Origin: Candidatus Peribacteria bacterium
Lineage (GTDB): Bacteria; Patescibacteriota; Gracilibacteria; Peribacterales; Peribacteraceae
DNA length: 62,238 nucleotides
Direction of reading: 5' to 3'
Assembly (NCBI GenBank): GCA_943350395.1
Contig: CALRAD010000006.1
Coordinates: forward strand, 1-62,238
Shown: piece after piece, positions 5,974-30,388 of the stretch
Numbering within the stretch: position 1 is the stretch's first letter
Layout of the letters: each line of letters opens with the position of its first letter
The notes under the pieces: generated by a model
Databases searched by the model: none
Told to the model about the DNA's origin: nothing
Seen by the model: only the letters and a program-made list of their open reading frames with translations
Translations under genes and position numbers: made by a program

Positions 5974-6756
5974 ATGAAACTTGGTCTCCGCTTGCGCACG
6001 CTTCTCTGTTTGATTGCAACAGTGAAGAACTGGCCTCTGTACTTCTTCGATCGATTCGGATGGGTACGCGGGGAAACGACCTACAAACTGAGAAATGGAC
6101 TTCGTCTGACCAGTCGCTCGTTCGCTCTGGATCGAGGACCCTTAAACGACGTGTGGTTCGACCAAAGTTACGAACCCAACGCGTATGGAATTCCGTTCGA
6201 CTGGAGCCGATGCAAAACAATCGTGGATATAGGCGCCAACATCGGCGTCTTCACGCTCTTTGCGGCATGGAAAGCGCCGTACAGCAGAATTGTCGCAATC
6301 GAAGCAGAGCCGTCGAATGCCAAGTGTGCACAGAGAAACGTGCTGCAGAACAATCTACAGAACCGTGTGACAGTCACCTCAAAAGCGGTCGGTAAAGCAA
6401 ACGGAACCCTTGAGTTGTTTCTTTCGACCAACAATAGCGGAGGCAACTCCATGTTCGAGTATGCGAAAGGATCTCCAAAAATCACGGTACCAATGGTCTC
6501 ACTCGAACATCTATTCCAAGAACAAAAAATCGAGAGCTGCGACTACCTGAAACTCGATTGCGAAGGAGCCGAATATGACATTTTGTATGCACTCCCAGAA
6601 TCTACGATGACAAAAATCCAGTTCATGGCGATCGAATACCATCATTTTTCATCCGAAAGCACACACCAACCGGAAGCACTGCGTGCATTTTTGGAACAAC
6701 GAGGATTTGAGGTCACAAAACCCAAAAAATCGTTCTTCTACGCGGTGCGTAGATAG
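5974..6756 (+). CDS. FkbM-family methyltransferase
   Basis: A 260-residue protein. The SAM motif I is VDIGANIGVFTLFAA (about residues 83-97) and the acidic residue after strand 2 is in AIEAEP. SCDYLKLDCEGAEYDIL is the FkbM-family hallmark. Members O-methylate sugars or glycolipids. A paralogue with the same domain order lies at 25.3 kb. Confidence 0.87.
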   Translation: MKLGLRLRTLLCLIATVKNWPLYFFDRFGWVRGETTYKLRNGLRLTSRSFALDRGPLNDVWFDQSYEPNAYGIPFDWSRCKTIVDIGANIGVFTLFAAWKAPYSRIVAIEAEPSNAKCAQRNVLQNNLQNRVTVTSKAVGKANGTLELFLSTNNSGGNSMFEYAKGSPKITVPMVSLEHLFQEQKIESCDYLKLDCEGAEYDILYALPESTMTKIQFMAIEYHHFSSESTHQPEALRAFLEQRGFEVTKPKKSFFYAVRR

Positions 6757-6772
6757 ATCACGTTGGATCCAG

Positions 6773-6778
6773 TACACT
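6773..6778 (+). promoter_or_regulatory. -10 element of the nucleotide-sugar dehydrogenase gene
   Basis: TACACT, six bases (GTCGGC), ATG 6785. It settles the start, because the frame is open further upstream. Confidence 0.6.
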
Positions 6779-6784
6779 GTCGGC

Positions 6785-8071
6785 ATGCAATCGAAAGAAC
6801 CGATTCTCTGCATTGTAGGGCTGGGGTACGTCGGCCTGCCGCTCGCGGCTGCGTTTGGAAGAACCGGATGGAAAACCTACGGTTATGACATCAATGAGGA
6901 GCGCATCAAAACCTTACGGTCGGGGAACGATTGGACACATGAACTTAATGCAAAGCAACTTTCAGAAACAAAAATCGAGTACAGCACGGATCCGACGGTA
7001 ATTTCGAAAGCGAATACGATCATCGTTGCGGTGCCAACTCCGGTCGATGAAAATAATAAACCGGATCTCTCGCCACTCGTCTCGTCGAGCACGATGATCG
7101 GAAAATATCTGAAAAGTGGTTCCGTCGTCGTCTACGAAGCGACCGTCTACCCTGGCGTCACGGAAGATGTCTGCGCGCCAATTCTGGAGCAAGAGTCAGG
7201 GCTCGTGTGCGGCAAAGATTTCACCGTCGGATACTCCCCCGAGCGCATCAATCCGGGTGACAAAGAACACACTGTCGACAAGATCATCAAGATCGTTGCG
7301 GGACAGGATGAACAGACGACCGAGTGGCTCGCGACAGTCTACGGAAAGATCGTGACCGCAGGAATCCACAAGGCACCCAATATCAAAGTGGCGGAACTCG
7401 CGAAAGCTCTTGAGAACACGCAACGCGACATCAACATTGCACTCATGAATGAGGTCGCGACGTTCTGCGACTTACTTGGCATTCGTACGAGTGATGTCCT
7501 CAAGGCTGCCGGCACCAAATGGAACTTTCTCAAATTCACCCCCGGGCTAGTCGGCGGTCACTGCATCGGTGTCGATCCGTACTACTTGGTCGAGAAAGCC
7601 AAAGAACTCGGCATGAATACGGAAGTGATTTCTGCGGGAAGAAAAATCAACGACGGCATGGCAGCATTCGTTGCAAAGCAAATCGTACACGGTCTGCAGC
7701 AAGCGAAGAAAGACCCGAAAAAATCTGCAGTCCTCGTCCTCGGTCTCACCTTCAAAGAAAACATCCCCGACACGCGCAATGCAAAAGTACACGATCTGAT
7801 CCATGCACTCGAAGAAGCAGGCTGCACCGTATCGGCACACGATCCGCAGCTGTCGAACGAACGAATCGAACAACTCGGTTTTAAGGCTGGTTCGCTGGTC
7901 AGCGGTCCTTTCGATGTGATCGTTGCCGCCGTACCACATGCCGCATACGGAACAATCACTTCTGTCGATTTCATCGATGCGCTCAAACCGGACGGCATTT
8001 TTTACGATCTCAAGTCGATCCGAAATCCGAGCGAGTTTGAAGCGAAGGGAATCAAGTACCTGTCACTATGA
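6785..8071 (+). CDS. Nucleotide-sugar 6-dehydrogenase (TviB/WbpO-like)
   Basis: A 428-residue protein of the UDP-glucose/GDP-mannose dehydrogenase family. IVGLGYVGLPLAAAFG is the NAD-binding motif, VYEATVYPGVTED the strand before the hinge, and GLVGGHCIGVDPYYL contains the catalytic cysteine. The C-terminal domain has GLTFKENIPDTRNAKV. GGHCIGVDPYYL is the form usual in enzymes oxidising UDP-GlcNAc/GalNAc to the uronic acid (TviB, WbpO) rather than plain Ugd. It overlaps the next gene by four bases. Confidence 0.9.
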   Translation: MQSKEPILCIVGLGYVGLPLAAAFGRTGWKTYGYDINEERIKTLRSGNDWTHELNAKQLSETKIEYSTDPTVISKANTIIVAVPTPVDENNKPDLSPLVSSSTMIGKYLKSGSVVVYEATVYPGVTEDVCAPILEQESGLVCGKDFTVGYSPERINPGDKEHTVDKIIKIVAGQDEQTTEWLATVYGKIVTAGIHKAPNIKVAELAKALENTQRDINIALMNEVATFCDLLGIRTSDVLKAAGTKWNFLKFTPGLVGGHCIGVDPYYLVEKAKELGMNTEVISAGRKINDGMAAFVAKQIVHGLQQAKKDPKKSAVLVLGLTFKENIPDTRNAKVHDLIHALEEAGCTVSAHDPQLSNERIEQLGFKAGSLVSGPFDVIVAAVPHAAYGTITSVDFIDALKPDGIFYDLKSIRNPSEFEAKGIKYLSL

Positions 8072-9928: not shown

Positions 9929-11416
9929 TCACTTTCGCATAACGACGTAAAAATTTGCCGCACACAATTCTGCACCCGGCATGTGCGCAAAGAGCACATC
10001 GAAATATTTGATCGGAAACAACAGCACCAAAAACAAATATTGAAGAATCCCCTGCAATTTTTTTGAACCGAAACAAAAGACCGTTGCAAAGAAAGCTGCC
10101 AGAAAGGCATTGAGTGCGGAAAACGGACCCGCCATGATGCCCTGCTCTTTCATCTCGCAATCGGGGAAGAGAGATGTAAGACCCTCCTGCGTCCATCGCG
10201 TATAGTCGGACGGTGACGGATGCCACGGAAAAACGAAAGGTGAAGCGACGTGAATCAGGCCACCGACACGCGTGACACGAAACAATTCCGATGCAACAAA
10301 CTTCGGGTCTTTCACATGCTCCAACACCTGATCGCACGTCACCGCATCGAACACGCCATCACGAAATGGCAGATCCGAAAGATCGGCCGCAACATCGACG
10401 CCTTCGAAAGGGAAAAGATCCACGTTCACCGACCTTGTTCCCAGACGGCGAGTACCCGACCCTGCATGCAATACGCGATCGGTCGACTGTAAACCGGCGA
10501 CAAAACGCTTCGACGTCATCCCCGTCAGGAATGACGGTCCGATCACTGCAAAGAAGAAGGCATACAAAGTCGGCCAACGCTTAAAAAAATCTTTGAAACG
10601 ACTCTCTCTCCCCATCTTCCCTTCAATATCGCTGCGCTGCGCCACGGTAACAAAATCCGGGATCCCATTCGTAACCGTGACGGGCATACGACTGAAAAGC
10701 GTTCCATCGGATGCACTGCCTTGCTTCAAACGCAGCTTTGCCACCAGTCGAATCGGCAGAAAACAGAAGGGAACCGACTGTATTGACTCGATCACAAAAC
10801 AAGACGATGCCAACTGCCGAAGTAAGATTCTGTCGAAGCTGCGAAGATGCCACTCGTCCTCCATGTGATCGGCCATCGTTGGGAAAAGCAGTCGAAATAC
10901 ACCGAGAGATTTCAAAATGCCTTTTAACGTATTGATCATGCCTTCATTTGGAACCGATACGACAACTCTGCCATCAGGCTTCAGCGCTGCCGCCATTTCC
11001 GAGAGCACATTCTCCGGATGCTGCACGTGCTCAAGCACTTCGCTACAGTAGATACGATCGAATGACCCCGGCTGCACGAATTGATGGAGAGCCTCTGCAT
11101 CACCGAGAAGAAGGCTGACGCTTGGCCCAAGACGTTTCTTCGCCTTCTCCAAAAGAAACGGACTCAAATCGAGTCCGACTCGGTGCTCCGAATGCACTTG
11201 CTCCAAAATATTGCCCGCTCCCACTCCCACTTCGAGTACGCGATGCTCCGGGCGAGCATCCATCAATCGAAGAATGCACTCGACGCGCTTCCGTTCAACG
11301 AACCGTACGATCGGATTTGTCGATGCATGGTATTGCTCCGGATCGTACTCATGAGCCATCCGCTCATTCCAAGCGGAAAACTCATCCTTGTTCATGGATG
11401 TTGCGGGATTCGTCAT
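9929..11416 (-). CDS. Two-domain SAM methyltransferase fusion
   Basis: A 495-residue protein with two class I methyltransferase-like halves. The first has VLEVGVGAGNILEQV, GLDLS and IYCSEVLEHVQHPENVLSEMAAALKPDGRVVVSVPN. The second has VLHAGSGTRRLGTRSVNVDLFP, AVTCDQVLEHVKDPKFVASELFRVTRVGG and a hydrophobic tail with a possible membrane-seated hairpin. A short NGIPDFV segment between them recalls Trm112-like linkers. The ATG at 11416 overlaps the upstream GT gene stop (ATGA). Sugar or lipid methylation is likely from context. Confidence 0.8.
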   Translation of the reverse strand: MTNPATSMNKDEFSAWNERMAHEYDPEQYHASTNPIVRFVERKRVECILRLMDARPEHRVLEVGVGAGNILEQVHSEHRVGLDLSPFLLEKAKKRLGPSVSLLLGDAEALHQFVQPGSFDRIYCSEVLEHVQHPENVLSEMAAALKPDGRVVVSVPNEGMINTLKGILKSLGVFRLLFPTMADHMEDEWHLRSFDRILLRQLASSCFVIESIQSVPFCFLPIRLVAKLRLKQGSASDGTLFSRMPVTVTNGIPDFVTVAQRSDIEGKMGRESRFKDFFKRWPTLYAFFFAVIGPSFLTGMTSKRFVAGLQSTDRVLHAGSGTRRLGTRSVNVDLFPFEGVDVAADLSDLPFRDGVFDAVTCDQVLEHVKDPKFVASELFRVTRVGGLIHVASPFVFPWHPSPSDYTRWTQEGLTSLFPDCEMKEQGIMAGPFSALNAFLAAFFATVFCFGSKKLQGILQYLFLVLLFPIKYFDVLFAHMPGAELCAANFYVVMRK

Positions 11417-12351
11417 AGGGAACGGGGATCTTGCTGTAAAAGGTATGGCTTGCGGTTTGAAGACTGAAAATACGTTCGCATCAGCATTTCGGCAAGAAGC
11501 CCCATGAGAGCGCACTGGATACCGACGATCACGAAGAGTGCCGAAAGAACCGGCAATGGTGTTTCGATGAGTGTCGGACCACCGACCTCACGCCACACGA
11601 CGGCACCGACAATAGTTAGTGCCCCGAGCAGAATCGACGTGAGACCGATTGCACCGAAAAATTGCATGGGTCTGGTGAATGAGCGGAGAAAGAACGTGAG
11701 TAGAAACAAATCAAGAAGCACGCGCCACACGCGACCGAACCCGTACTTCGACATTCCTCTCGTCCGCGGACGATGGTGCACAACGATTTCGGCGACTTTT
11801 GCACCATTCACGGCGGCATACGCCGCAAGAAAACGATGCATATCGCCGTAGAGACCGAGATTTTCGACAACATTTTTTTTGTACGCCTTCATTGTGCAAC
11901 CATAATCGTGAATCGATTGTCCTGACGCGAGACGAATCAAACGATTCGCGATGCGCGACAGCAGTGACCGAAGCCAGGCATCGTGTCGATTCCTGCGCCA
12001 ACCCGAAACAATGTCATATCCTTCCGCAATTTTCGAAACGAATTTGGGGATATCCGCGGGATCATTCTGCATATCGGCATCCATCGGCAAGAGAATATCG
12101 CCAGTCGCGACGTCCATTCCTGCTGCGATTGCTGCTGTCTGTCCATAATTGGTCGCAAGCCTCACGACACGGAGAAAGCTGAATTTCTTGGAGAGCCTCT
12201 CCAAAACATCAAAACTTCCGTCGGTGGATCCGTCATCAACGGCGATGACCTCGCTCCCTTGATAGGCAACTAGAACTCCTGAAAGCTCCCCCAGAAGTGG
12301 CTCCAGATTTTCACGCTCATTATGGACAGGCAGAATAACGGAAAGACGCAT
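11413..12351 (-). CDS. Membrane-anchored family 2 glycosyltransferase (DPM1/ArnC-like)
   Basis: A 312-residue protein. LSVILPVHNERENLEPLL, VDDGSTDGSFDVL and PMDADMQNDPADIP form the GT-A core, with the HDYGCTMKAYKK and HHRPRTRGMSKYGFGRVWR segments. Two C-terminal membrane helices (about residues 225-260 and 265-290) follow. This is the layout of undecaprenyl-phosphate glycosyltransferases such as ArnC and GtrB. It heads a minus-strand gene pair with the two-domain methyltransferase. Confidence 0.88.
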   Translation of the reverse strand: MRLSVILPVHNERENLEPLLGELSGVLVAYQGSEVIAVDDGSTDGSFDVLERLSKKFSFLRVVRLATNYGQTAAIAAGMDVATGDILLPMDADMQNDPADIPKFVSKIAEGYDIVSGWRRNRHDAWLRSLLSRIANRLIRLASGQSIHDYGCTMKAYKKNVVENLGLYGDMHRFLAAYAAVNGAKVAEIVVHHRPRTRGMSKYGFGRVWRVLLDLFLLTFFLRSFTRPMQFFGAIGLTSILLGALTIVGAVVWREVGGPTLIETPLPVLSALFVIVGIQCALMGLLAEMLMRTYFQSSNRKPYLLQQDPRSL

Positions 12352-12357
12352 AGCAAC

Positions 12358-12363
12358 ACTATA
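12358..12363 (-). promoter_or_regulatory. -10 element of the GT2 gene
   Basis: TATAGT, six bases (GTTGCT), ATG 12351. Confidence 0.6.
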
Positions 12364-12390
12364 AAGGAGCCGATGACACCGCGCCACGAT

Positions 12391-14115
12391 CTATTTCCGA
12401 AGCTCTATGAGCTCATACCCAGGACCTGCATAGACACTTCTGCCTCCCGAAAGCAACAAACGGTACTGCTGTGTCTTCGTATCACTTGGAGACACAATAA
12501 CGTAATCGAGAGGATAGAGACTTAATTTTCTCTGCAGTGGCAGAGCGTAATACCGCGAATATTCCCGTACATGCTCTTCGACAAGTTCATCGGGGAGTGC
12601 GGCGTAATCACCACGCAATTCCCGATAATAACTGCCGTAAATATCCGTTCCGAGCGTTCTGCGGAGCGTCGTAGGAAATTGAAGACCAGCATCCTTCGGC
12701 ATGATGCCTTGTAACCAAAGCGTAAAAAAGAGCATGTCACGCAATCTCGAAGCCGGCAGAAGATAATTACTCGCCTGCGCGGATGTATACACATTCATCG
12801 ATGTGTACACGGGAAGCAAATCCATCACGAATGCATCTTGTGAATACGCCACCGTATCTTTTGGCACGCGCTCCCCGACGTACGAAAAGAGCGGCGCAAG
12901 ATTCTGAAGACCACCCCACTCGCTGCGGTATGTCCCGTACGTATCGCGCTGCTGCAAAAATCCGACAACGAGCGACGCCGCGATGATGCTGCATAGAAAA
13001 AAATCATAGAGCGCTGCACGCAGGTGTTTCCGAGCGAAAAGCAGAATCAGCAATGCGAAGAAGAGCGTGCCGAGAGGCTGCACAAAGTACCAGTGGTAAT
13101 GTTCCGGGAAGAGATGTTGAGACGTCATCACCTGCTGGTTCATCGCAATCGCACCGCCAAGCGCAAGTGCAAGAACAAGCGGAAACTGTTCTTTCCAAGC
13201 AATACGCTTACCAAGAACTGACAAAACGACGAGCGCGATCAGCCACGCACCAACGACAGGCAAGCGTGACGAAACCAATCCCTGATGACGTGAAGAGTCC
13301 AAGTACCACGGATGCTGTATCAATCCTGCAAGATCCAGAAAGTAACCGCTGCCAAGAAACAAGAAGAGTGCGAAGTAGAGCAGAAGATGCCAAAGCCTTT
13401 TCTTCTCTTTTTTCCATGCATAGAAAAGAAAAAGCACTCCCGCAGTCGCGAGAAGATACGTCCATGCATAAAAATAGGAATACAGCAGAACGGTCGTCAT
13501 GATCGCCGCACAGACGATCCAAAGAATCTCTGCCTTCCGCACCCAACGACTAAAGAAAAAGACTGTCGTAAAGAAGAGCGGCATCGTCCAGAGAGGATTG
13601 ACGGGCCGCGCAAATCGGAGCCACCCGAAATCGGCAAAGGATCCGGAGGAAAGAACATTCAGCACATTCCACGGCGTGCCGAAGGGAGCTGCGGCAAAAA
13701 GCATCACAGCAACTGCTGCAAGCGATTCATACCGCCTCCCGGTGATCGAAGCAGTCATCAGAACCGCAGTACAGAATGTGATGAATGCGCAGAGTCCCGT
13801 CAGGAGAACAAAACTGAGGACAGGATCGAACGGAAGAGCTCGGGATAACATGGCAAGAGACCATTCGGGCAGAGGCGGTTGGACCGAGGGTTGATCCTTC
13901 GGTGCCGAGAGATACGTATTGCCAAGCTCCGGATGACCATCAAGAATTTCTCGGTAACGTGCGGCATAATGCGTCTCGGCATCCGTCGCCATGATCGAGA
14001 TGCCCTGAAACGGATACTCATGATCCAGTCGCTGCAATACATGCGGCAGAAGCACTGCCGATGCGAACAGGAACCCCAGAAGAGCAACGGAAAGTGGAAA
14101 CGTAATATTCTTCAT
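12391..14115 (-). CDS. Large membrane protein, probable GT-C glycosyltransferase
   Basis: A 574-residue protein with around a dozen hydrophobic helices. The first periplasmic loop has TDAETHYAARYREILDGHPELG, an acidic motif in the position of the GT-C catalytic loop, then QPPLPEW. A C-terminal soluble part (from about residue 470) has a DAFVMDLLPVYT...NYLLP segment. There are no recognisable signatures beyond this. It starts one base after the stop of the upstream gene, so the two are translated from one mRNA. The ATG at 14115 immediately precedes the first hydrophobic helix. Confidence 0.65.
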   Translation of the reverse strand: MKNITFPLSVALLGFLFASAVLLPHVLQRLDHEYPFQGISIMATDAETHYAARYREILDGHPELGNTYLSAPKDQPSVQPPLPEWSLAMLSRALPFDPVLSFVLLTGLCAFITFCTAVLMTASITGRRYESLAAVAVMLFAAAPFGTPWNVLNVLSSGSFADFGWLRFARPVNPLWTMPLFFTTVFFFSRWVRKAEILWIVCAAIMTTVLLYSYFYAWTYLLATAGVLFLFYAWKKEKKRLWHLLLYFALFLFLGSGYFLDLAGLIQHPWYLDSSRHQGLVSSRLPVVGAWLIALVVLSVLGKRIAWKEQFPLVLALALGGAIAMNQQVMTSQHLFPEHYHWYFVQPLGTLFFALLILLFARKHLRAALYDFFLCSIIAASLVVGFLQQRDTYGTYRSEWGGLQNLAPLFSYVGERVPKDTVAYSQDAFVMDLLPVYTSMNVYTSAQASNYLLPASRLRDMLFFTLWLQGIMPKDAGLQFPTTLRRTLGTDIYGSYYRELRGDYAALPDELVEEHVREYSRYYALPLQRKLSLYPLDYVIVSPSDTKTQQYRLLLSGGRSVYAGPGYELIELRK

Positions 14116-14116
14116 A

Positions 14117-15352
14117 TCAGCGAGCAGGAGGAAAACCGAGACGCGAAAGCAGTTTGTCGTATCCGATCGCTGCAAACATGGCGTAGCAGAAACTGACAGG
14201 AATCAGATACCGAGGTGTAGCCGCGATGAGGGCGAAGAAAGCTGTATTGTATGCAATCAAGAGAAGGAAGAAGAACATGCGCCGATCAAAGAGAGACCTG
14301 AAGGCAAGAAGACAACCGACGTAGATGATTGCTGATCCGATGGCTGCAAAAAGGTTGAACAGAAAGGGCCATCCCCCACCGACGAAAGGAAGATGAAGTT
14401 CCAAAATCTGGAAGAGCGAATCCCAAAGATACCAACCAAAGTGTGAGCGGATCTTCTCGAGAGCCAGAGGTGCGAGAGCCGTATCGACGGACGGCTGGTC
14501 GCTTGGCCATATGCGATGCATGAGGGAATTCACGCTGCATGCGTCGGATCTCCCCGTCCAATCCCTCGAAACATACTCTGCCCAAAGGCAAAGAAACGGT
14601 TCGACTCCGTGCAATCTCTCAGCTTGCTCACCGCGCGCGTACAGCATCACCGTCGTGCGATCGGAACCGATGATGCGAAAATGCCCATCGATGCGCTGAT
14701 TGCGAAAACCCCAGAAAGAAAGAATTGCTGCCGTCAGAACAAACATCCAAAGAAGTGCTTTCTTCGGCACGCGCCGATACCACAAATAGAGGAGAACGAA
14801 GAGCGGAAGAAAAATGAACGAGTAGTACGCAAGCGGCAGAAAGCCGAGAAGTACTCCGATCAGGATTGCTGTCCGCAGGCGATATCGTTCGAGAATCGAG
14901 AGGATAGCGATCGACAACCCGAGAAGAAGCAGGAGTGCGAATGCTTCGCGATACACGATGAAAATGCCATGCAAGACGGAAGGTGACGTGAGGAGAAGAA
15001 AAAAGAAAATGCTTGCAGTTCGTTTCCCGAAAATCGATGCAAGTTTTTGAGACAAGAAAAGAGACAGCAACCAATAGAGAACCGCCTGAACCGCAAAAAC
15101 GGCGATTCCGTTCCAAAGACCGAAAACGCTGTACACGACAGCAACAAACGCACTATAGAGAGGCTCACGCTCGATGAACGGATAAATCCCGTCTTGGGAA
15201 TACGTCCCTATCTCCAGAAGATTCACCGCACCCAGGCTGTAGGTCTTGCTGTCACCGACGAACGTCAAATCTTTCGGCAGCCAAAAAAACACAATGGCAA
15301 TGCAACACATCAAGTACACGATGCTGCCGATGAGGATCGTAGTGCGAGACAT
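14117..15352 (-). CDS. Membrane protein, PMT/ArnT-like GT-C glycosyltransferase
   Basis: A 411-residue, roughly ten-helix protein. FVGDSKTYSLGAVNLLEIGTYS followed by EREPLYSAFVAVVYSVFG matches the D-x-Y...EPLYP-FLA pattern of family 39-like transferases. A periplasmic stretch with two cysteines (CLWAEYV, DACSVNSLM) follows the middle helices. The ATG overlaps the asparagine synthetase stop by one base (TGATG), which places it in an operon with asnB1. Confidence 0.75.
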   Translation of the reverse strand: MSRTTILIGSIVYLMCCIAIVFFWLPKDLTFVGDSKTYSLGAVNLLEIGTYSQDGIYPFIEREPLYSAFVAVVYSVFGLWNGIAVFAVQAVLYWLLSLFLSQKLASIFGKRTASIFFFLLLTSPSVLHGIFIVYREAFALLLLLGLSIAILSILERYRLRTAILIGVLLGFLPLAYYSFIFLPLFVLLYLWYRRVPKKALLWMFVLTAAILSFWGFRNQRIDGHFRIIGSDRTTVMLYARGEQAERLHGVEPFLCLWAEYVSRDWTGRSDACSVNSLMHRIWPSDQPSVDTALAPLALEKIRSHFGWYLWDSLFQILELHLPFVGGGWPFLFNLFAAIGSAIIYVGCLLAFRSLFDRRMFFFLLLIAYNTAFFALIAATPRYLIPVSFCYAMFAAIGYDKLLSRLGFPPAR

Positions 15353-17340
15353 CAGTCGTTCCCATACTGTACCAGCCATTCATCCAGGTACAGAAGCGAC
15401 CACACGTGATCGCTGTAGTCGATCCGAGAATTGAAGTAGAAAGCGAGAAATTTTTCCATCGCAGCCCGATCGAAGATTTCCCAAAGTCGGGAACTCGGCG
15501 ACAGCAATCGATCGGTCACAAATGACTTGAGATCGGTTCGAAACCAACGATCGAGCGGAAGTCTGAAACCGGACTTCTTCTTCGCAAGCGTCTCCGCCGG
15601 CAAATAATCTTTCAAGATTTCTTTGAGGATCCATTTTTTCGTATTCCACCCTCGTAATTGATACTCCGAAGGCAGTGTTGCAGTCAGCTCGAGAAGTTTG
15701 TGATCGAGAAACGGCGACCTTGCCTCAAGCCCGCTCGCCATCGCACCGAGATCGACCTTCGGGAGCAGGTCATCTGCGAGGTAGGTCTCGAGATCGAGGC
15801 TCAGCGCTTGATGGAGAAGATCGTCACCAGTCCTCACTCCGCCCCGCCGAGCGGGGCACCTCTCTCCATCGGCTGGAGAGAGGAAGTCAGTATTGAGAAA
15901 AGTATGGGCTCCCCCTTCTCCGGCATACGGAGAAGGGGTCAGGGGATGAGGACCGCGCCTCGCATACCACTCACTTGTCACAGAAAAATTTTCTGCAAAT
16001 CTCTTCCGATAGAGCGCTCTCTTCTCCTCTTCCGTAAACAGACTGATGTACTGCAGAAGTCTCTCTGCCCAAGGCAAACCGATCGTCGATTCGAATCGCT
16101 GCATGCGATAACTGAGCGTCGTTCCGGCAAACGCATGAAAACCGTTGATGAGTGGACGCAGAAGAGCGTGCAGGGGAATGCGACGCCAGAGTTCCGAGAA
16201 CTGCAGAATCGGATAGCGAACGTAGCCCGCAAAATTTTCGTCTCCGCCGTCGCCATTCAAAGCAACTGTCACGAATTTCCGGGTTTCGCGCGCAAGCAAG
16301 TACGTTGGAATCGCCGACGGATCCGCATACGGCTCTTCGTACGTCGCAACAATCTCGGGAAGCAAATGCACGATGTCTGCTTTCAGGAGTATCGGATGAT
16401 GATTTGTCTTGAAGAGCTTCGCGATACGTTCGGCATCGGGCAGCTCGTTGTGTGTTTGCTCGGGGCTGCCGATCGAAAATGTCTCAACTGGACGATTGCT
16501 GAGCTGACTCATCATGCAGACGACCGCCGCGGAATCGATCCCTCCCGAGAGAAACGCTCCAACCGGAACATCGGCGATCATGCGGAGCCGCACACTCTCC
16601 CGAAACGTTTCGAGAATATCCCGTTTCCATTGTTCAAGAGACTTCGATCGATCTGTCTTGTAACTGAGTGACCAATACTTCTTGAGTGTTTGCTTCCCGG
16701 AGTTCAAATCGATCGTCAGTGAGTGTGCCGCAGGGAGCTTCTTGATACCGCTCACACCGGTCTCGGGTGAAGCGACGTACATCATCGTCAGATAATGATG
16801 CACCGCCTCAGAATCCATCCCCCTTGGACACTCAGGAAGCGTCCGAAGTGCCTTCAGCTCCGAAGCAAAAGCAAACATCGTTTCATTCGCAAAATATTTG
16901 AGCGGTTTCTTGCCAACTCTGTCTCGTGCAAGAAACACTATGTTCTTTTTCCGATCATGGATCGCAAACGAAAACATCCCACGCAGTTTCTGCACACACT
17001 CTTCACCCTCCTCACGATAGAGCGCGAGGAGCACTTCGGTATCACCCGTCGACTTGAAGACGCATCCCCTCTTTTGCAGTTCCAACCGGAGTTCTTTGAA
17101 ATTATAAATCTCACCGTTAAACACAATCGCAAGTGACTGATCATCACTGATCATCGGCTGACTTGCAGCGCTGCTCAGATCAAGAATCGACAGTCGCCGG
17201 TGTCCGAGTCCGACCGGACCGGCTATCACCGTGCCTCGCCCGTCGGGACCGCGGTGCGTCAGTCCATCGGTCAACCGATCAAGAGCTGCTTGATCAGGAG
17301 TGACGCCGTCGAAACGAATGATGCCTGCGATACCGCACAT
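15352..17340 (-). CDS. asnB: Asparagine synthetase (glutamine-hydrolysing), paralogue 1
   Basis: A 662-residue protein starting MCGIAGII, so Cys2 is the glutaminase nucleophile after Met removal. The N-terminal Ntn domain has RRLSILDLS, NGEIYNF and ARDRVGKKPL; the synthetase domain has AFLSGGIDSAAV (PP-loop), NGDGGDENFAGY and SPFLDHKLLE. In glycan loci such enzymes often amidate uronic acids rather than make free asparagine, which fits the two sugar dehydrogenases here (inference). About 40 extra residues (464-503) come from an in-frame repeat copy in a variable loop. Its ATG is 19 bases from that of its divergent paralogue. Confidence 0.9.
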   Translation of the reverse strand: MCGIAGIIRFDGVTPDQAALDRLTDGLTHRGPDGRGTVIAGPVGLGHRRLSILDLSSAASQPMISDDQSLAIVFNGEIYNFKELRLELQKRGCVFKSTGDTEVLLALYREEGEECVQKLRGMFSFAIHDRKKNIVFLARDRVGKKPLKYFANETMFAFASELKALRTLPECPRGMDSEAVHHYLTMMYVASPETGVSGIKKLPAAHSLTIDLNSGKQTLKKYWSLSYKTDRSKSLEQWKRDILETFRESVRLRMIADVPVGAFLSGGIDSAAVVCMMSQLSNRPVETFSIGSPEQTHNELPDAERIAKLFKTNHHPILLKADIVHLLPEIVATYEEPYADPSAIPTYLLARETRKFVTVALNGDGGDENFAGYVRYPILQFSELWRRIPLHALLRPLINGFHAFAGTTLSYRMQRFESTIGLPWAERLLQYISLFTEEEKRALYRKRFAENFSVTSEWYARRGPHPLTPSPYAGEGGAHTFLNTDFLSPADGERCPARRGGVRTGDDLLHQALSLDLETYLADDLLPKVDLGAMASGLEARSPFLDHKLLELTATLPSEYQLRGWNTKKWILKEILKDYLPAETLAKKKSGFRLPLDRWFRTDLKSFVTDRLLSPSSRLWEIFDRAAMEKFLAFYFNSRIDYSDHVWSLLYLDEWLVQYGND
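15832..15951. repeat. Palindrome-rich interspersed repeat, copy B, in frame inside asnB1
   Basis: Exactly 120 bp. On the minus strand it begins CCTCATCCCCTGACCCC and ends with a GAGCGGGGC/GCCCCGC-type hairpin and GGAGTGAGG, as copy C does. It is read through as 40 codons (including HPLTPSPYAGEGGAH) in the phase where the CCCTGA of its start is not a stop. Confidence 0.88.
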
Positions 17341-17345
17341 GGTGG

Positions 17346-17352
17346 TACTATA
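17346..17352. promoter_or_regulatory. Overlapping divergent -10 elements between the asnB paralogues
   Basis: TACTATA reads as TACTAT on + (17346-17351, eight bases before ATG 17360) and as TATAGT on - (17352-17347, six bases before ATG 17340). Both -35 regions would lie inside the opposite gene. Confidence 0.6.
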
Positions 17353-17359
17353 GCCTCGA

Positions 17360-19183
17360 ATGTGTGGTATCGCAGGCTTTATCGGCGAAGACCGTAGACG
17401 GATCGATCGCATGACGGATGCGCTCGTTCACAGAGGACCGGACGGCAATGCACGGTACGTCGGAAACGGCGTATCGCTTGGGCATGCAAGACTCGCGATT
17501 CTTGATCCGAGACCGGAAGCCGACCAGCCGATGTGGAACGACGAAAAAACGGTCGTGATTGTCTATAACGGCGAAATTTATAATTACAGAGCTTTGGCAC
17601 AAGCGGAAAAGCTGACGTGCAAAACAACCAGTGATACGGAAGTCATCCTCAAACTGTATGAGAAGTACGGCATCGACTGCGTGAAACTGTTTCGAGGCAT
17701 GTTCGCATTCGGTCTCTACGATATCGCGAAAAAAACTCTCTTCCTCTCGCGCGACGGAAGTGGCATCAAGCCTCTCTTCGTATCAACACTCGGTGGAACG
17801 CTGTCGTTTGCTTCCGAAATGCGCTCACTGATGACATCACTCCCGCAAAAACCAAGTCTGAATTTCAAAGCACTGAGCAACTACGTTCGCCTTCACTATG
17901 TCCCCGGTCCTGAAACGCTTTGCGAGGGCATTGAATCTCTGCCGGCAGGAACGATACTCACATACAAAAACGGACAAGAGCAAAGACGCACGTTCAGAAC
18001 GGCTGTCGAACCGATTGCATACGATTCAAAAGCGGATTTCAGCCGGAACTTTCCGGATCTGATGGACATGGTCGTGAAAGGTCATCTCGTCTCGGACAAA
18101 CCGGTCGGCATTTTCCTGAGTGGAGGGATGGATTCATCGATCGTGCTGCATTCCATGTGCAAACACGCACAAAAACCCGTGAAAACGTTTACCGTACGCT
18201 TCGAAGCAACCGAAGAGGAAGATGCTGCAAGGTTCAACCGCGATGCAGATATTGCGAAGCAGACGGCGAAGCACTACGGAACCGATCACTCTGAGATCAC
18301 GCTGACTGCCGCACTCTGCCGCGAAGTGTATGAAGAAACAGCTAAAGCTTTGGACCAACCGAATGCCGACTCGGTCGCGATGGCGCAGTTTGTGCTTGCA
18401 AGAGAAGCCAAGAAACACGTCGATGTCGTTCTTACGGGGTCCGGCGGCGATGAACTCTTCGGCGGTTATCCGCGGTACCGCATCGCACGGATTCTCTCTC
18501 TTCTTCGATTCATTCCTGCGAAACTGCGAGGAACAATCGGTGGACTGCTCGGGTATCCCCCTGATGTGCTTCGCATGACTCCCGGTCCCGCTCTCGCAGA
18601 GAGACTCCTCGCAAGATCGGAGTCTGAAACGAACGCGATCGTGTCCGGCCACTGGTATGAACCACAGGAAACAACTGAACTTTTCCGAACACGATTTGAA
18701 GAAAGCTCGTTTCAGAATGATCCCGTACGTGCCTTCATGGAATTCGACAGAACACTCTGGCTCACAGACGAGTCTCTCCGCCTTGCCGATGCCGTGACGA
18801 TGGCGAGCGGACTTGAGTGCAGAGTGCCGTTCCTCGATCCGCTGATCATCAGCGCATCGCACGGAACGAACAGCGCATGGCACACAGGACCGAGACGAAC
18901 GAAGGCACTTTTGAAAGATACCTACTATCCGATCCTCCCCGACTGTATCCGTTCCATCGATAAAGCATCGTTCTATCCACCTCTCGCCAAGTGGTTCCGA
19001 CGCGAATGCGCACCACTCGCGGAACACGCGCTTGCTCACCAAAGAATTCGCGAACTGTTTGATACCGACGCACTGAAGCGTATCTTCACGGAACACAAAG
19101 AACACAAGAAGTACGGGCTGCATACCCTCCAGATGATCACGCAGCTTGCCTTCTGGTTCGACACTGTCTACGACCGCACATGA
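17360..19183 (+). CDS. asnB: Asparagine synthetase (glutamine-hydrolysing), paralogue 2
   Basis: A 607-residue protein with MCGIAGFIG, so Cys2 is the nucleophile again. It has ARLAILDPR, YNGEIYNY, GSGIKPLF and the PP-loop FLSGGMDSSIV, then TGSGGDELFGGYPRYR and ECRVPFLDP. The length is normal and there is no repeat insertion. The last bases overlap the flippase start (ATGA), so it belongs to the polysaccharide export operon. Sugar amidation is more plausible than a second free-asparagine enzyme, but this is not shown. Confidence 0.9.
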   Translation: MCGIAGFIGEDRRRIDRMTDALVHRGPDGNARYVGNGVSLGHARLAILDPRPEADQPMWNDEKTVVIVYNGEIYNYRALAQAEKLTCKTTSDTEVILKLYEKYGIDCVKLFRGMFAFGLYDIAKKTLFLSRDGSGIKPLFVSTLGGTLSFASEMRSLMTSLPQKPSLNFKALSNYVRLHYVPGPETLCEGIESLPAGTILTYKNGQEQRRTFRTAVEPIAYDSKADFSRNFPDLMDMVVKGHLVSDKPVGIFLSGGMDSSIVLHSMCKHAQKPVKTFTVRFEATEEEDAARFNRDADIAKQTAKHYGTDHSEITLTAALCREVYEETAKALDQPNADSVAMAQFVLAREAKKHVDVVLTGSGGDELFGGYPRYRIARILSLLRFIPAKLRGTIGGLLGYPPDVLRMTPGPALAERLLARSESETNAIVSGHWYEPQETTELFRTRFEESSFQNDPVRAFMEFDRTLWLTDESLRLADAVTMASGLECRVPFLDPLIISASHGTNSAWHTGPRRTKALLKDTYYPILPDCIRSIDKASFYPPLAKWFRRECAPLAEHALAHQRIRELFDTDALKRIFTEHKEHKKYGLHTLQMITQLAFWFDTVYDRT

Positions 19184-20499
19184 AGTTCTTCGCATCCATC
19201 ACCGGTCTGCGTCGCATTCCCTTCGTCCGCGATGTTGCGACGATTCAAGTCGGATCCATGATCCTGATGGCAGCAGGTTTCGTGAGTTCGATCGCATTCG
19301 CGAGACTGCTCGGCAAAGAAACATACGGTCTCTATGCTGTTATCCTGGCATTTTCGGGGACATTCACAGCATTCTTCAACATCGGTCAGGGGCAATCTCT
19401 CTACGTCTTCTTCTCCGAAGCGTACGGAAGAAAAGACCGACATGCGATGGCGGCGGTCATCGCAAATTTCACCGCAGTTGCCGGTGTGAACATCGTTCTC
19501 CTGCTGATCCTTTCGATGCTGATGCCAATGCTCTCGATGAAATTCTATGGCTCACCGAGTATCGGTCAGTACGCACGCATCCTCTGCTTTTTCCAGATGA
19601 GCGAAATCCTGAACAGCATGACGCTGATACTGTTGCAGTCGCTTCGGCAAATCCGCCTCAAAGTCATCTTGGAACAATCGGCAAATCTCTCGTACCTCGG
19701 ACTCGCGGTCGCCGTACTCTTCTTCGGAGGAAAAATTCATGCAGTACTTTTAACACAGCTCGGAGTGAGTCTCTTCTTCCTGCCAATTTCAATCATTGCA
19801 CTCGGGGTCACCGCACGCCGTTTCTCGCTCCCCGGAATCAGAGAAGTCCTCCGCATCCCATGGAAAGAGAGCAAAGAGTATTTGGGACAGGGACTTCTGA
19901 TCACCGCTGACAAAACAATCGGCAACTTCTTTCCGCAAGGACTCTACTTCTTCCTCAGCCTCTTCGTTCCGGCCTCTTTTGTCGGCGTCGCACGCATCGC
20001 CGTGCAACTTGCAAACGTCCCAAGGAGCATTCTCCTCCCGCAAGCAGGCGATCTCTCGACCGCTGCTTTTGCACGAATGAAGACTGAGGGAGTGACAGTT
20101 CTCCGGAAGAACGCAGCCAAACTCATCAAGCATGCGCTCGCGTTTCACGCGCTCCTCTCTCTCGGCGCCGCCATCGTCTTCCCTCCGATCGTGATGTTCT
20201 TTTATGGCGTGCAGTATCTTGAAGCTATTCCGGTGATGCTCTGGCTTCTTTTGATTCACCTCGTAAGCTCCCTCTCGATCGCAAACTCTCCTCTCCTTCG
20301 CTTGTATCGAAAAACGCAATACTCGATCCTGGCGGGAGCGGTGAACTGGACACTGATGATCGGCAGCCTCCTCATCCTTGTTCGATTCTTCCCTCCACTC
20401 CCTGTGTTCCTCATCACGTACTTGATCGGTACCACGGTACCACTTGCGCTCACGTGGTACGTCTTCAAACGGCTCCTTGTCGGTGATCAACAGCAATAA
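19180..20499 (+). CDS. Polysaccharide flippase (Wzx-like, MOP superfamily)
   Basis: A 439-residue protein with 12-14 hydrophobic helices. The N-terminal pattern IQVGSMILMAAGFVSSIAFARLLGKETYGLYAVILAF is the usual opening of PST/Wzx exporters. Helix-breaking charged residues and the long central loop (EVLRIPWKESKEYLGQ) also fit. It would move polyprenyl-linked repeat units across the membrane. Confidence 0.85.
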   Translation: MKFFASITGLRRIPFVRDVATIQVGSMILMAAGFVSSIAFARLLGKETYGLYAVILAFSGTFTAFFNIGQGQSLYVFFSEAYGRKDRHAMAAVIANFTAVAGVNIVLLLILSMLMPMLSMKFYGSPSIGQYARILCFFQMSEILNSMTLILLQSLRQIRLKVILEQSANLSYLGLAVAVLFFGGKIHAVLLTQLGVSLFFLPISIIALGVTARRFSLPGIREVLRIPWKESKEYLGQGLLITADKTIGNFFPQGLYFFLSLFVPASFVGVARIAVQLANVPRSILLPQAGDLSTAAFARMKTEGVTVLRKNAAKLIKHALAFHALLSLGAAIVFPPIVMFFYGVQYLEAIPVMLWLLLIHLVSSLSIANSPLLRLYRKTQYSILAGAVNWTLMIGSLLILVRFFPPLPVFLITYLIGTTVPLALTWYVFKRLLVGDQQQ

Positions 20500-20513: not shown

Positions 20514-21665
20514 ATGCATATCCTCTTCATCACCTCAACTCTCGAACCCAAAAGCGGATGGGGAACATACAGTAGAAATACTGTGAAAGGATTTCTGGAA
20601 CGTGGACACCGCGTGAGCGTACTGACGCATGAGCGCTCCGAAAATCCTATCATGCGCGAAGATGCAGTTCTCCCCGCCCCTCTGCATGTGCTCACGTCCT
20701 ACCTCTCACTGGTTTGGTCGTCATGGATGATTGCGAAGGCGATACGCAAACATCGTCCCGATGTTCTGCACATTCTCATCGAACCGTACGTCATCGCCAT
20801 GCCTCTCGTACGCCTCCTCACGACACTGCCTCCGTGGGTGATGAATCTGCACGGAACGTACAGTGTTTTTCCGTTTGTCCGGCGACGCAGTCGCCAACTC
20901 ATGGACTTGGCATGCAGACAGGCAGCTGCATTCCTTGCGTGCAGTCACTACACGTGGAATAAAACACTCGAAGCTGCAACGCGGTATGCATCGAAAGAAG
21001 CAGTCAGGAATCTCAAAGAACGAACGCATCTGTTTCGCTTTGGCATCAACGCACCGGTGAAAACAGCGAACAAAATATCTGAAAGAAAAAGTCACACCGT
21101 GCTTTTCGTCGGTGAAGTGAAACCGAGAAAGGGTGTCAAAGAACTTCTGCTCGCATGCATGCAGTACGCGAAGGAATCATCCGTGCCTCTGCATCTCGCG
21201 ATCGTCGGAAACACGACCGAACAAAGTTCTTACATGAAAGAACTGAGGACGTTGGTGCAAAACCACGGTCTTCAAGACATCGTCACGTTCTATGGAAAAA
21301 CATCCGAGCAGAAACTTTCGGAACTGTTTGCCGAGAGCGATCTCTTCATGATGCTTAGCAAAAGTGACGGCATCTACTTCGAAGGATTCGGACTGGTGTT
21401 TCTCGAAGCGAATGCGCACGACATTCCGGTCATCGGTTCCAAGGACTCCGGCTGCGCGGAAGCGATCGATGAAGGGAAATCCGGATACGCGGTCGATGCT
21501 TTTGATCAAAAAATGATTGTCGAACGCATGCACTGGGTTCTCAATGAAAAACGCATCAATGGATCCGAGTGTCGCCGGTGGGCGGAATTCCATAGCATTC
21601 CGAAGCAAGTCGATCAGATCGAGGCATGCTACAAAAGCATTCTCCCTACGCCTTCGGCTGAATGA
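20514..21665 (+). CDS. Family 4 glycosyltransferase
   Basis: A 383-residue GT-B enzyme. MHILFITSTLEPKSGWGTYSRN opens the acceptor domain, VLFVGEVKPRKGVKELL begins the donor domain, and KSDGIYFEGFGLVFLEANAHDIPVIGSKDSGCAEAI holds the E-x7-E region that binds the sugar nucleotide. It follows the flippase by 14 bases, whose sequence is pyrimidine-rich with no Shine-Dalgarno. Its 3' end overlaps the convergent SDR gene by 20 bp. Confidence 0.87.
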   Translation: MHILFITSTLEPKSGWGTYSRNTVKGFLERGHRVSVLTHERSENPIMREDAVLPAPLHVLTSYLSLVWSSWMIAKAIRKHRPDVLHILIEPYVIAMPLVRLLTTLPPWVMNLHGTYSVFPFVRRRSRQLMDLACRQAAAFLACSHYTWNKTLEAATRYASKEAVRNLKERTHLFRFGINAPVKTANKISERKSHTVLFVGEVKPRKGVKELLLACMQYAKESSVPLHLAIVGNTTEQSSYMKELRTLVQNHGLQDIVTFYGKTSEQKLSELFAESDLFMMLSKSDGIYFEGFGLVFLEANAHDIPVIGSKDSGCAEAIDEGKSGYAVDAFDQKMIVERMHWVLNEKRINGSECRRWAEFHSIPKQVDQIEACYKSILPTPSAE

Positions 21666-28427: not shown

Positions 28428-29153
28428 GTGAATCAATCTCACCTGCTCTCCATCGTCATTCCGGTCTACAACGAAGCCGAGAATGCGCCACCGCTCCTTA
28501 GAGACCTGGAGGCATTCGTCCGTGAACCGTATGAAGCACTGATCGTCTATGATTTCGACGAAGACAACACCTTGCCTGCAATTACCTCCATGCAGCCGCC
28601 TGCATCAAACGTACGTCTAGTCCGAAACAGAATCGGTAAAGGAGTACTCAATGCCTACAAAGCAGGATTCTCCGCAAGCAAAGGGGACGTCATCATCCTT
28701 GTTGCGGGCGATCGTGCAGATGACCCAAAAGATATTCCGATTCTCGCAAAACTCGTACGCGAAGGAGCGGATGTTGCCGCCGGATCGCGCTATATGAAAG
28801 GAGGGGCGCAAGTAGGCGGACCGGTGTTCAAACAGTTTTTAAGCAGACTTGCAGGGCTCTCGCTCCATTACCTCGTCGGTCTTCCGACACATGACGCAAC
28901 CAATAACTTCCGCGCGTACAGCAGACGGGTGATCGAACTTCCGATCGAAACCACCGTGAGTTTCGCTCTCGGCATCGAACTGGTGCTGAAAACTTTCTGG
29001 AACGGATGGATCATTCGAGAAATTCCGACCGTGTGGCACGACCGCAGAGAAGGCGTCTCCCGTTTCCGACTCTGGGCATGGATGCCCGAATATCTGCGTT
29101 GGTATCTTCTCGCATTCTGGAAAACACTCATAGGCGGCAGAAAACACAATTGA
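28428..29153 (+). CDS. Family 2 glycosyltransferase
   Basis: A 241-residue protein from a GTG start. LSIVIPVYNEAENAPPLL, IVYDFDEDNT (a D-x-D pair in place of the usual DDGS), GKGVLNAYKAGF and VAGDRADDPKDIP define the GT-A fold, and HDATNNFRAYSRRV follows. It lacks membrane helices, like a soluble polyprenol-phosphate transferase. The frame is open upstream into the divergent epimerase gene, but the promoter position favours the GTG. Confidence 0.82.
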   Translation: MNQSHLLSIVIPVYNEAENAPPLLRDLEAFVREPYEALIVYDFDEDNTLPAITSMQPPASNVRLVRNRIGKGVLNAYKAGFSASKGDVIILVAGDRADDPKDIPILAKLVREGADVAAGSRYMKGGAQVGGPVFKQFLSRLAGLSLHYLVGLPTHDATNNFRAYSRRVIELPIETTVSFALGIELVLKTFWNGWIIREIPTVWHDRREGVSRFRLWAWMPEYLRWYLLAFWKTLIGGRKHN

Positions 29154-29176
29154 CTATCGCTACCTTGAACGTGAGA

Positions 29177-30388
29177 ATGAACCCGATGAAGGATCTTGCA
29201 AAACCCAACGGCAAAACGCTTGCGATCATCGGTGGCTGTGGCCATGTCGGTCTACCGCTCGGTATGGCATTCGCCGAGAAAGGCTACCGCGTGCACTTGG
29301 TCGACATCAGCGAAAAAGCCGTGAACATGGTCAATGCTGGAACAATGCCATTCGTGGAAGAAGAAGCAGATGCACTGCTCCCGAGAGTGCTGGCAGCCGG
29401 ACTCCTCAGCGCAACGACGGATTTCGGAGTTCTCAAAGACACCGAGATCGTGATCGTGACGATCGGCACCCCCGTCGACGAATATCTGGATCCCTCGGTG
29501 CACAGTTTCGACGAAGCACTTCATCGTCTCATCGGGCAGATGCACGCAGGCCAACTGCTGGTGCTTCGAAGCACGGTGTTCCCGGGAGTCACCGACAGAC
29601 TCGGCAGGCAACTTTCATCCATGGGACATGCCGACATCGATCTTGCCTACTGCCCCGAGCGCATCGTGCAGGGGCAATCTCTACAGGAACTTAAAGAATT
29701 GCCTCAGCTGATTGGAGGATTCACCGATGATGCCGCCAAACGAGCAGCAGAACTTTTTACGTGCCTCTCCCCGACATCAATTTTCCTGAGGCCCATCGAA
29801 GCAGAACTCGCAAAACTCTATGCCAACGCATGGCGCTACATCAATTTTGCCATCTCCAACCAATTCTGGGTCACCTCCCAAGATTTCGGCGCCGACTTCG
29901 ACAAGATTCATTCGGCGTTAAAACAGGATTACCCCCGCATGAAATCCTTTGCGAGAGCAGGATTCGCTGCAGGACCCTGTCTCCTGAAAGACACCATGCA
30001 GCTTGGAGCTTTCAACCACGGTTCGTTTGTGCTCGGGCAAGCGGCAATGATGATTAACGAGGGACTCCCCTATCTGCTGGTCCAGCAGATCAAGCAGACC
30101 CATGATCTAAGTACGATGAAAGTAGGCATCCTCGGGATGGCATTTAAGCCAAACAGCGACGATATCAGAAGCTCACTTTCCTACAAGCTCCGGAAAGTTC
30201 TCGTCCTCGAAGCGAAAGAAGTCCTCTGCGCCGATCCGTACGTCCGTGACCCAGAACTCTGCACACAGGAAAAAGTGCTGAAGGAAGCAGACCTCATTGT
30301 CATCGGCACACCGCATGACTGCTATAAGACTCTCGCGTTCAAACAACCGGTCGTCGATATTACAAAGACTATTTCGAATACGAAATAA
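29177..30388 (+). CDS. Nucleotide-sugar dehydrogenase (WecC-like)
   Basis: About 403 residues. AIIGGCGHVGLPLGMAFAEKG is the NAD motif, VLRSTVFPGVTDRL and AYCPERIVQG follow, and FAAGPCLLKDTMQLG carries the catalytic cysteine. LGMAFKPNSDDIRSSLSYKL is the C-terminal domain motif. AGPCLLKD is the WecC-type form, so UDP-ManNAc or a similar amino sugar is a reasonable guess. The start could also be ATG 29186 or GTG 29171. Its 3' end overlaps the convergent membrane gene by 20 bp. Confidence 0.85.
   Translation: MNPMKDLAKPNGKTLAIIGGCGHVGLPLGMAFAEKGYRVHLVDISEKAVNMVNAGTMPFVEEEADALLPRVLAAGLLSATTDFGVLKDTEIVIVTIGTPVDEYLDPSVHSFDEALHRLIGQMHAGQLLVLRSTVFPGVTDRLGRQLSSMGHADIDLAYCPERIVQGQSLQELKELPQLIGGFTDDAAKRAAELFTCLSPTSIFLRPIEAELAKLYANAWRYINFAISNQFWVTSQDFGADFDKIHSALKQDYPRMKSFARAGFAAGPCLLKDTMQLGAFNHGSFVLGQAAMMINEGLPYLLVQQIKQTHDLSTMKVGILGMAFKPNSDDIRSSLSYKLRKVLVLEAKEVLCADPYVRDPELCTQEKVLKEADLIVIGTPHDCYKTLAFKQPVVDITKTISNTK

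Follow-up and report, generated by a model that had tools for sequence, protein, structure and literature searches.

A class of 18-bp bidirectional promoters has been described in which the -10 elements of the two strands overlap and the bases -7T and -11A are reciprocally paired (PMC10268837); according to the sections of the two reports drawn on here, divergent transcription starts of this class lie 7-25 bp apart, with a mode of 18, and T is found at -18 (PMC10268837, PMC12825309). Another compact signal, TANNNT about 12 bp 5′ of the start codon, is given in the covered part of a survey as the mark of leaderless (TA-led) bacterial genes (PMC3160421). The present study concerns a 19-bp spacer (17341-17359, ggtggtactatagcctcga) between two divergent amidotransferase genes in a stretch of 62,238 nucleotides (hereafter, the window) of contig CALRAD010000006.1 from a Candidatus Peribacteria genome (GCA_943350395.1; G000 in the comparisons below). 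We consider it probable that this spacer is a bidirectional sigma-70-type promoter serving both genes, with mRNAs beginning at or within about 2 nt of the AUG, that the arrangement was captured by deletion and that the products are old glycan-sugar amidotransferases.

Regarding the products, the relevant part of one study places WbpS and WbqG in the family eps_aminotran_1 and reports that deletion of wbpS in P. gingivalis abolishes uronamide (PMC7468200). For human asparagine synthetase (ASNS), the portion of the report used here names Glu-364 and Asp-367 as the residues in contact with the aspartyl part (PMC6748925).

Structure of the spacer and the promoter core

The spacer separates a gene on the minus strand (15352-17340, 662 amino acids (aa)) from a gene on the plus strand (17360-19183, 607 aa), and both proteins open with MCGIAG. 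The minus open reading frame (ORF) is extendable to an upstream ATG at 17412; since class II amidotransferases require Cys as residue 2, its start is 17340 and not 17412, and both starts, 17340 and 17360, are fixed by the chemistry of the catalytic Cys-2 independently of annotation. The first 18 bases of the minus gene (17323-17340) and of the plus gene (17360-17377) form the arms of an inverted repeat matching at 17 of 18 positions, because both encode MCGIAG.

The core of the spacer, TACTATA (17346-17352), reads TACTAT on the plus strand (17346-17351) and TATAGT on the minus strand (17347-17352), so that five of the six bases of each hexamer overlap. TATAGT, the candidate -10 hexamer of the minus gene, begins at -12, the modal position; TACTAT, the candidate hexamer of the plus gene, begins at -14, within the genome-wide TANNNT peak (-12 to -17), and is preceded by TGG, as in extended -10 elements. 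The core also has the TANNNTA form of the 18-bp class, in which -7T and -11A are reciprocally paired. The 18-bp rule would put the minus start at 17340, the A of the ATG, and the plus start at 17358, which predicts a 2-nt leader, so the plus mRNA would be leaderless or nearly so; with these predicted starts, the base at -18 is T for the plus direction and C for the minus direction. Hexamers overlapping at allowed positions were found in 0.5% of 200,000 random 19-mers of the genome and in 1.3% of 26-mers, and in 1.4% of shuffled versions of the 19-bp spacer (1.4-2.2% over three actual spacers). A classical -35 promoter was considered and rejected: a simple -35/-10 scan of the spacer revealed no such pair, and the leaderless-like starts of the genome carry almost no -35 information.

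The first-pass annotation of this DNA, made from the letters alone, had described two MCGI-type genes starting 19 bp apart with TATAGT and TACTAT overlapping on opposite strands, and both descriptions hold. Its proposal of a shared promoter with leaderless mRNAs, extended here to near-leaderless ones, is well supported as a prediction from sequence and comparison.

Leaderless starts and recurrence of the overlapping arrangement

The small genome of this uncultured bacterium comprises 1.25 Mb (51% GC in the sample). Upstream of the first ATG of ORFs of at least 150 aa, TANNNT peaks at -12 (46 of 339 ORFs, versus about 4.5 per position upstream), and over positions -18 to -11 the excess amounts to 118 of 336 genes in 442 kb of G000. 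Shine-Dalgarno-like motifs are depleted in the same sample (6 observed, 18.6 expected). In the 106 leaderless-like starts, position -2 ahead of the hexamer is biased towards G/T, and position 5 of the hexamer is typically A or C. The congener G002 resembles G000 (TANNNT excess in 93 of 294 genes), and the peak is also present in G031 (69 of 268). Judging by these motifs, many genes of this genome start without a leader or nearly so.

The two genes of the spacer have the same signature, with TANNNT at -12 (minus) and -14 (plus) and no Shine-Dalgarno site. Among orthologue starts in G000 and its relatives, a TANNNT hexamer is found at 22 of 24 (14 of 15 of the plus type and 8 of 9 of the minus type, with chance at about 5% each), most commonly as TATACT at -12, and none of the 24 has a Shine-Dalgarno site; this count leaves out four homologues of the minus protein lying outside the minus clade (G006, G011, G015 and G040), three of which lack such a hexamer at a glance.

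Overlapping divergent hexamers recur. The 442 kb of G000 contain 72 divergent ORF pairs; in 17 of them, 8-45 bp separate the two ATGs, and among these four have both hexamers and three have overlapping ones; for spacers of 15-30 bp, the proportion is three of five. Overlapping hexamers were also found in 2 of 73 divergent pairs in G002 and 1 of 81 in G031, all these pair counts being somewhat inflated, since overlapping motifs were favoured in the choice of start codons. A second divergent pair of G000 (C1, 117021/117041) matches this one in spacer length (19 bp) and in its TACTATA core, and its plus gene encodes SLH domains. The palindromic promoter AGTGTACACT is kept in both G000 (C2, 21141/21168) and the congener G002 (C6, 238279/238305), between genes for an M16 peptidase (family assigned on the G002 orthologue) and a RelA/SpoT-domain protein, both of which are predicted to be leaderless.

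Arrangement in relatives and probable history

Genes of the plus and minus types stand divergently on one contig in six relatives, 0.86-12 kb apart (4175 bp in G001, 860 in G027, 888 in G051, 3768 in G047, 1734 in G026 and 11974 in G020), and on different contigs in G016 and G022; the 19-bp fusion is absent from all six with both genes on one contig. Eight of the 12 genomes searched contain a methyltransferase gene which, where coordinates were checked, adjoins one of the two genes or sits between both; it is absent from G000, G001, G030 and G031. The congener G001 has instead a 1362-aa ORF between the two genes (L112, 8382-12470), with no Pfam match and no counterpart in the 11 other genomes searched.

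The DNA immediately 5′ of the plus gene in G001 can be aligned with the G000 spacer, 18 of 5000 shuffles being as good; no alignment of the spacer was found with the minus gene's own promoter in G001 (740 of 5000 shuffles as good). Read in the plus direction, the core is TACCATG in G001 and TACTATA in G000, and the base differences create the minus hexamer and also bring the plus hexamer nearer the consensus, the direction of change not being polarised. An ancestral 19-bp arrangement was rejected on account of the intervening genes in relatives. Because relatives have these genes and the spacer matches plus-gene upstream DNA, the simplest history is a loss of intervening DNA in the G000 line. 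The 19-bp arrangement is thus probably a recent product of this lineage, formed when the DNA standing between the genes in relatives was lost, and the minus gene has probably lost its own promoter and uses the reverse face of that of the plus gene.

Families and relationships of the two amidotransferases

Profile searches indicate that the minus protein (15352-17340) is a class II glutamine amidotransferase with the Asn-synthase fold, of an eps_aminotran_1/WbpS-like kind (PF00733, 296), and that the plus protein (17360-19183) is a second Asn-synthase-fold amidotransferase of a separate clade. Both carry Cys-2, the SGGxDS motif and the conserved Lys. The best family of the minus protein is TIGR03108; that neither protein reaches its cut-off of 816.9 (557.8 for minus, 371.8 for plus) counts against a direct assignment, and the minus protein is suggested to work like the WbpS/eps_aminotran_1 uronamide family, to which it is nearest, with no membership claimed. 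Scores for PRK09431 (asparagine synthase B) are 271.4 and 250.6, below the cut-off of 499. The genome gave no other strong Asn_synthase match, the one further hit, on contig C3, being weak (25.3 bits, barely above the cut-off of 21).

In a tree of 33 rows, which does not include WbpS and WbqG sequences, the plus type forms a clade of 14 (support 100/100) and the minus type a clade of eight (100/99); the latter joins a homologue from a haloarchaeal Halorussus glycan cluster (96/90) and then the XrtA amidotransferase (88/84, below full support). The E. coli AsnB branch is very long, its place unsure, and its joining with the plus clade is flagged as possibly false. The tree indicates that the plus and minus types are old, separate subfamilies; a recent local duplication was rejected on the same two clades, so the term paralogues, used in the first-pass annotation, stands in its deep sense and falls as a statement on local duplication. 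The phylogeny proposed there as a check likewise separates the two proteins and brings the minus type near the XrtA amidotransferase, leaving the relation to AsnB unsure.

A third, shorter Asn-synthase-fold protein with an MCSICGM start was noticed in G002 and G051 (L118, 17174-18625; L114, 15699-16730); it keeps the AsnB Glu.

Alternative explanations and the preferred reading

The possibility that the two proteins are conventional asparagine synthetases, there to provide free asparagine, is suggested by their scores over the TIGR01536 cut-off of 267.1 (446.9 for minus, 383.9 for plus) and by plasmid homologues annotated asnB, but several features make it quite unlikely. The aspartate-pocket Glu, which we take to be Glu348 in E. 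coli AsnB numbering, is replaced by Ser, Ala or Thr in 14 of 14 plus-type proteins (Ser in the plus protein of the window) and by Asp in eight of eight of the minus type. The reference sequences have Asp (XrtA and Halorussus), Gln (NAGGN amidotransferase) or Glu (E. coli AsnB, Paenibacillus asnB and the third-type proteins); by pattern, 80 named homologues gave Asp 61 times, Glu 10 times and other residues six times, nine loci remaining unmatched and some giving multiple matches. A literature search on asparagine synthetase Glu348 found nothing. In the genome, GatB is present above its cut-off and no match to asparaginyl-tRNA synthetase (AsnRS) passes the family cut-off, which makes amidation the presumed route to Asn-tRNA. 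Of 57 genomes of the same family, only 21 have a strong homologue (E <1e-30), and the genes sit among glycan genes. The evidence supports the view that neither protein looks like biosynthetic AsnB; sugar amidotransferases, as had been proposed at first, are favoured by families, tree, active-site residue and the GatB/AsnRS pattern.

As for the promoter, several observations, besides the inflation of the pair counts, weigh against a shared leaderless unit. The G at position 5 of TATAGT is rare (6% of the 106 leaderless-like starts, 89% of which have A or C there), and TACTAT lies 2 bp farther from its ATG than the modal distance. The hexamer is missing at one start of each type, that of G030 for plus and that of G026 for minus. 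G031 also shows a Shine-Dalgarno excess (22 versus 9), and overlapping pairs number 0 of 57 in the G094 sample, where the leaderless test is uninformative, standard stops having been used and the class of G094 including genomes in which TGA appears to be a sense codon; given these two genomes, the leaderless/overlapping-promoter pattern is not class-wide. The 19-bp junction itself is known from one draft assembly of 27 contigs. Misassembly is unlikely, and an artefact that joined two inverted gene starts appears very improbable: the 17/18 inverted repeat, the draft state and the presence of other DNA at this place in relatives would favour it, but 18 bp of inverted match is little for a join, and the promoter in the spacer is coherent and correctly placed relative to each ATG. 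Perhaps only the plus gene uses the spacer, TATAGT being a by-product of near-symmetry and the minus gene being fired from inside the plus gene or barely expressed; homology of the spacer to plus-gene upstream DNA only, the disfavoured G and an in-frame repeat insert in the minus gene, absent from its G001 orthologue as might be expected of a decaying gene, agree with this. We regard it as unlikely, since the minus hexamer lies exactly at the modal -12, the minus ORF runs uninterrupted through 662 codons and, apart from the AsnB Glu, keeps the catalytic residues that were checked, the predicted fold outside the insert is confident, and the base differences from G001 that create the minus hexamer also improve the plus one. 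The first-pass annotation had further suggested a switch-like balance, in which mutual exclusion at the shared -10 would give a bistable or tuned balance of two glycan programmes. The two -10 elements indeed cannot be occupied simultaneously, and, in the sections used of a study on E. coli, one direction is repressed when the other is strongly activated, but five of five bidirectional promoters tested there were too weak at basal activity for polymerase competition (PMC12825309). Because competition appears there when one side is strongly activated, a switch is the less likely reading; mutual exclusion alone carries no memory, and none of the six relatives has the fusion. The switch seems very improbable, and this part of the early interpretation is not supported.

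Under the preferred reading, a bidirectional promoter serving both genes, the symmetrical core would offer one -10 element per strand, RNA polymerase would load in either direction and never in both at once, and ribosomes would start on the 5′-terminal AUG without a Shine-Dalgarno site. The loss of intervening DNA would have left the minus gene using the back of the plus gene's promoter. The two enzymes, old, distinct and dependent on glutamine, most likely amidate carboxylates of surface-glycan sugars; these are probably uronic acids, as originally suggested, with uronic or other acidic sugars as the best guess.

Glycan gene neighbourhood and the repeat insert

Each amidotransferase gene heads its own run of glycan genes, as had been noted at first. 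In the minus direction, the gene is followed by those for a PMT_2-like membrane glycosyltransferase (14117-15379; weak match to PF13231, 22.2 bits, gathering score 26.1), a 594-aa ORF with no family match (12391-14175), a family 2 glycosyltransferase (11413-12387, PF00535) and a methyltransferase-domain protein (9929-11515, PF08241), all on the minus strand. On the plus strand, a polysaccharide flippase gene (Polysacc_synt, 19180-20499, PF01943) overlaps the stop of the amidotransferase gene, and a family 4-type glycosyltransferase gene (20514-21665, PF00534) comes next. The two sugar dehydrogenases of the first-pass annotation are present in the window, both on the plus strand, but neither lies inside the two operons: one is a TviB-like nucleotide-sugar 6-dehydrogenase (6683-8071; TIGR03026, 375 bits, which is over the cut-off; NF011729, 389.5, below the cut-off of 592) and the other a second nucleotide-sugar dehydrogenase (29006-30388; TIGR03026, 254.9, cut-off 189.8).

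The in-frame insert of the minus gene (15830-15953) is a dispersed palindromic repeat bounded by GTCCTCA/TGAGGAC, in which three hairpins are predicted (DNA fold z -5.45). The genome has 54 matches to it, many of them fragments; among 39 genomes, the three that belong to the genus all carry it (22, 16 and 21 matches), and elsewhere there are only traces, in 2 of the other 36. Among 16 longer copies checked, this is the only one contained entirely in an ORF longer than 340 aa; ORFs of 154 and 163 aa hold two more. In behaviour, the repeat presumably resembles the Rickettsia palindromic elements. AlphaFold modelling of the minus protein (24-row alignment) gave a mean predicted local distance difference test (pLDDT) score of 86.3 and a predicted template modelling (pTM) score of 0.88; since residues 454-484 and 488-503 are under pLDDT 50 and most of the remaining model is confident, the insert probably forms a floppy loop and probably leaves the folding of the enzyme intact. 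Beside the insert, 149 bases (15587-15735) are identical to G001, although most 60-column blocks of the gene show about 63-88% identity; this stretch looks like a tract of recent recombination.

Comparison with known systems

No recognised account of leaderless bidirectional promoters in candidate-phyla bacteria was found in the literature, mostly judged by title. If the proposed reading is true, symmetric bidirectional promoters and leaderless genes would be joined in one compact unit, and the comparison with relatives shows how promoter capture can give rise to such a unit. The short, clean sequence is amenable to laboratory testing. More tentatively, and with less than even likelihood, leaderless translation in this Peribacteria-type lineage may remove the need for leaders, so that a single symmetrical -10 driving two leaderless mRNAs is all that has to remain between divergent genes; such regions might arise repeatedly by deletion, with a neighbour capturing the back face of a promoter, and some, such as that of the M16 peptidase and RelA/SpoT genes, might be kept by selection. 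Units of this kind would then be near the smallest that can provide promoter and ribosome entry for two genes.

With regard to the enzymes, the proteins share with WbpS, WbqG and eps_aminotran_1, as far as described in the part of the study drawn on, the fold, Cys-2, the SGGxDS loop and a glycan context with nucleotide-sugar dehydrogenases (PMC7468200). The minus protein resembles the XrtA amidotransferase reference in its Asp at the AsnB-Glu position and differs from eps_aminotran_1 (TIGR03108) in its score below the curated cut-off, whereas the plus protein belongs to a different clade with a residue of the Ser/Ala/Thr type. E. coli AsnB and human ASNS have the same domains, glutaminase residues, pyrophosphate (PPi) loop and synthetase-site Asp and Lys, but the aspartate-pocket Glu-364 (human numbering) is kept in neither protein. 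This adds evidence that asnB-annotated genes in glycan clusters of candidate phyla need not be asparagine synthetases.

With regard to the promoter, the TANNNT spacing of about 12 bp and the positional peak are the same as in TA-led genes, but here two such signals share bases, and the lineage is of the Peribacteria type, which is not named in the covered parts of the survey (PMC3160421). The near-symmetrical two-strand -10 is that of the 18-bp class, which, in the sections of the reports used, often lies between divergent genes (PMC10268837, PMC12825309). The difference is that here the spacer is the whole intergenic region, with both mRNAs predicted to be leaderless or nearly so, in a genome depleted of Shine-Dalgarno motifs; the promoter is a compact example of a known bidirectional class, and the special part is its history.

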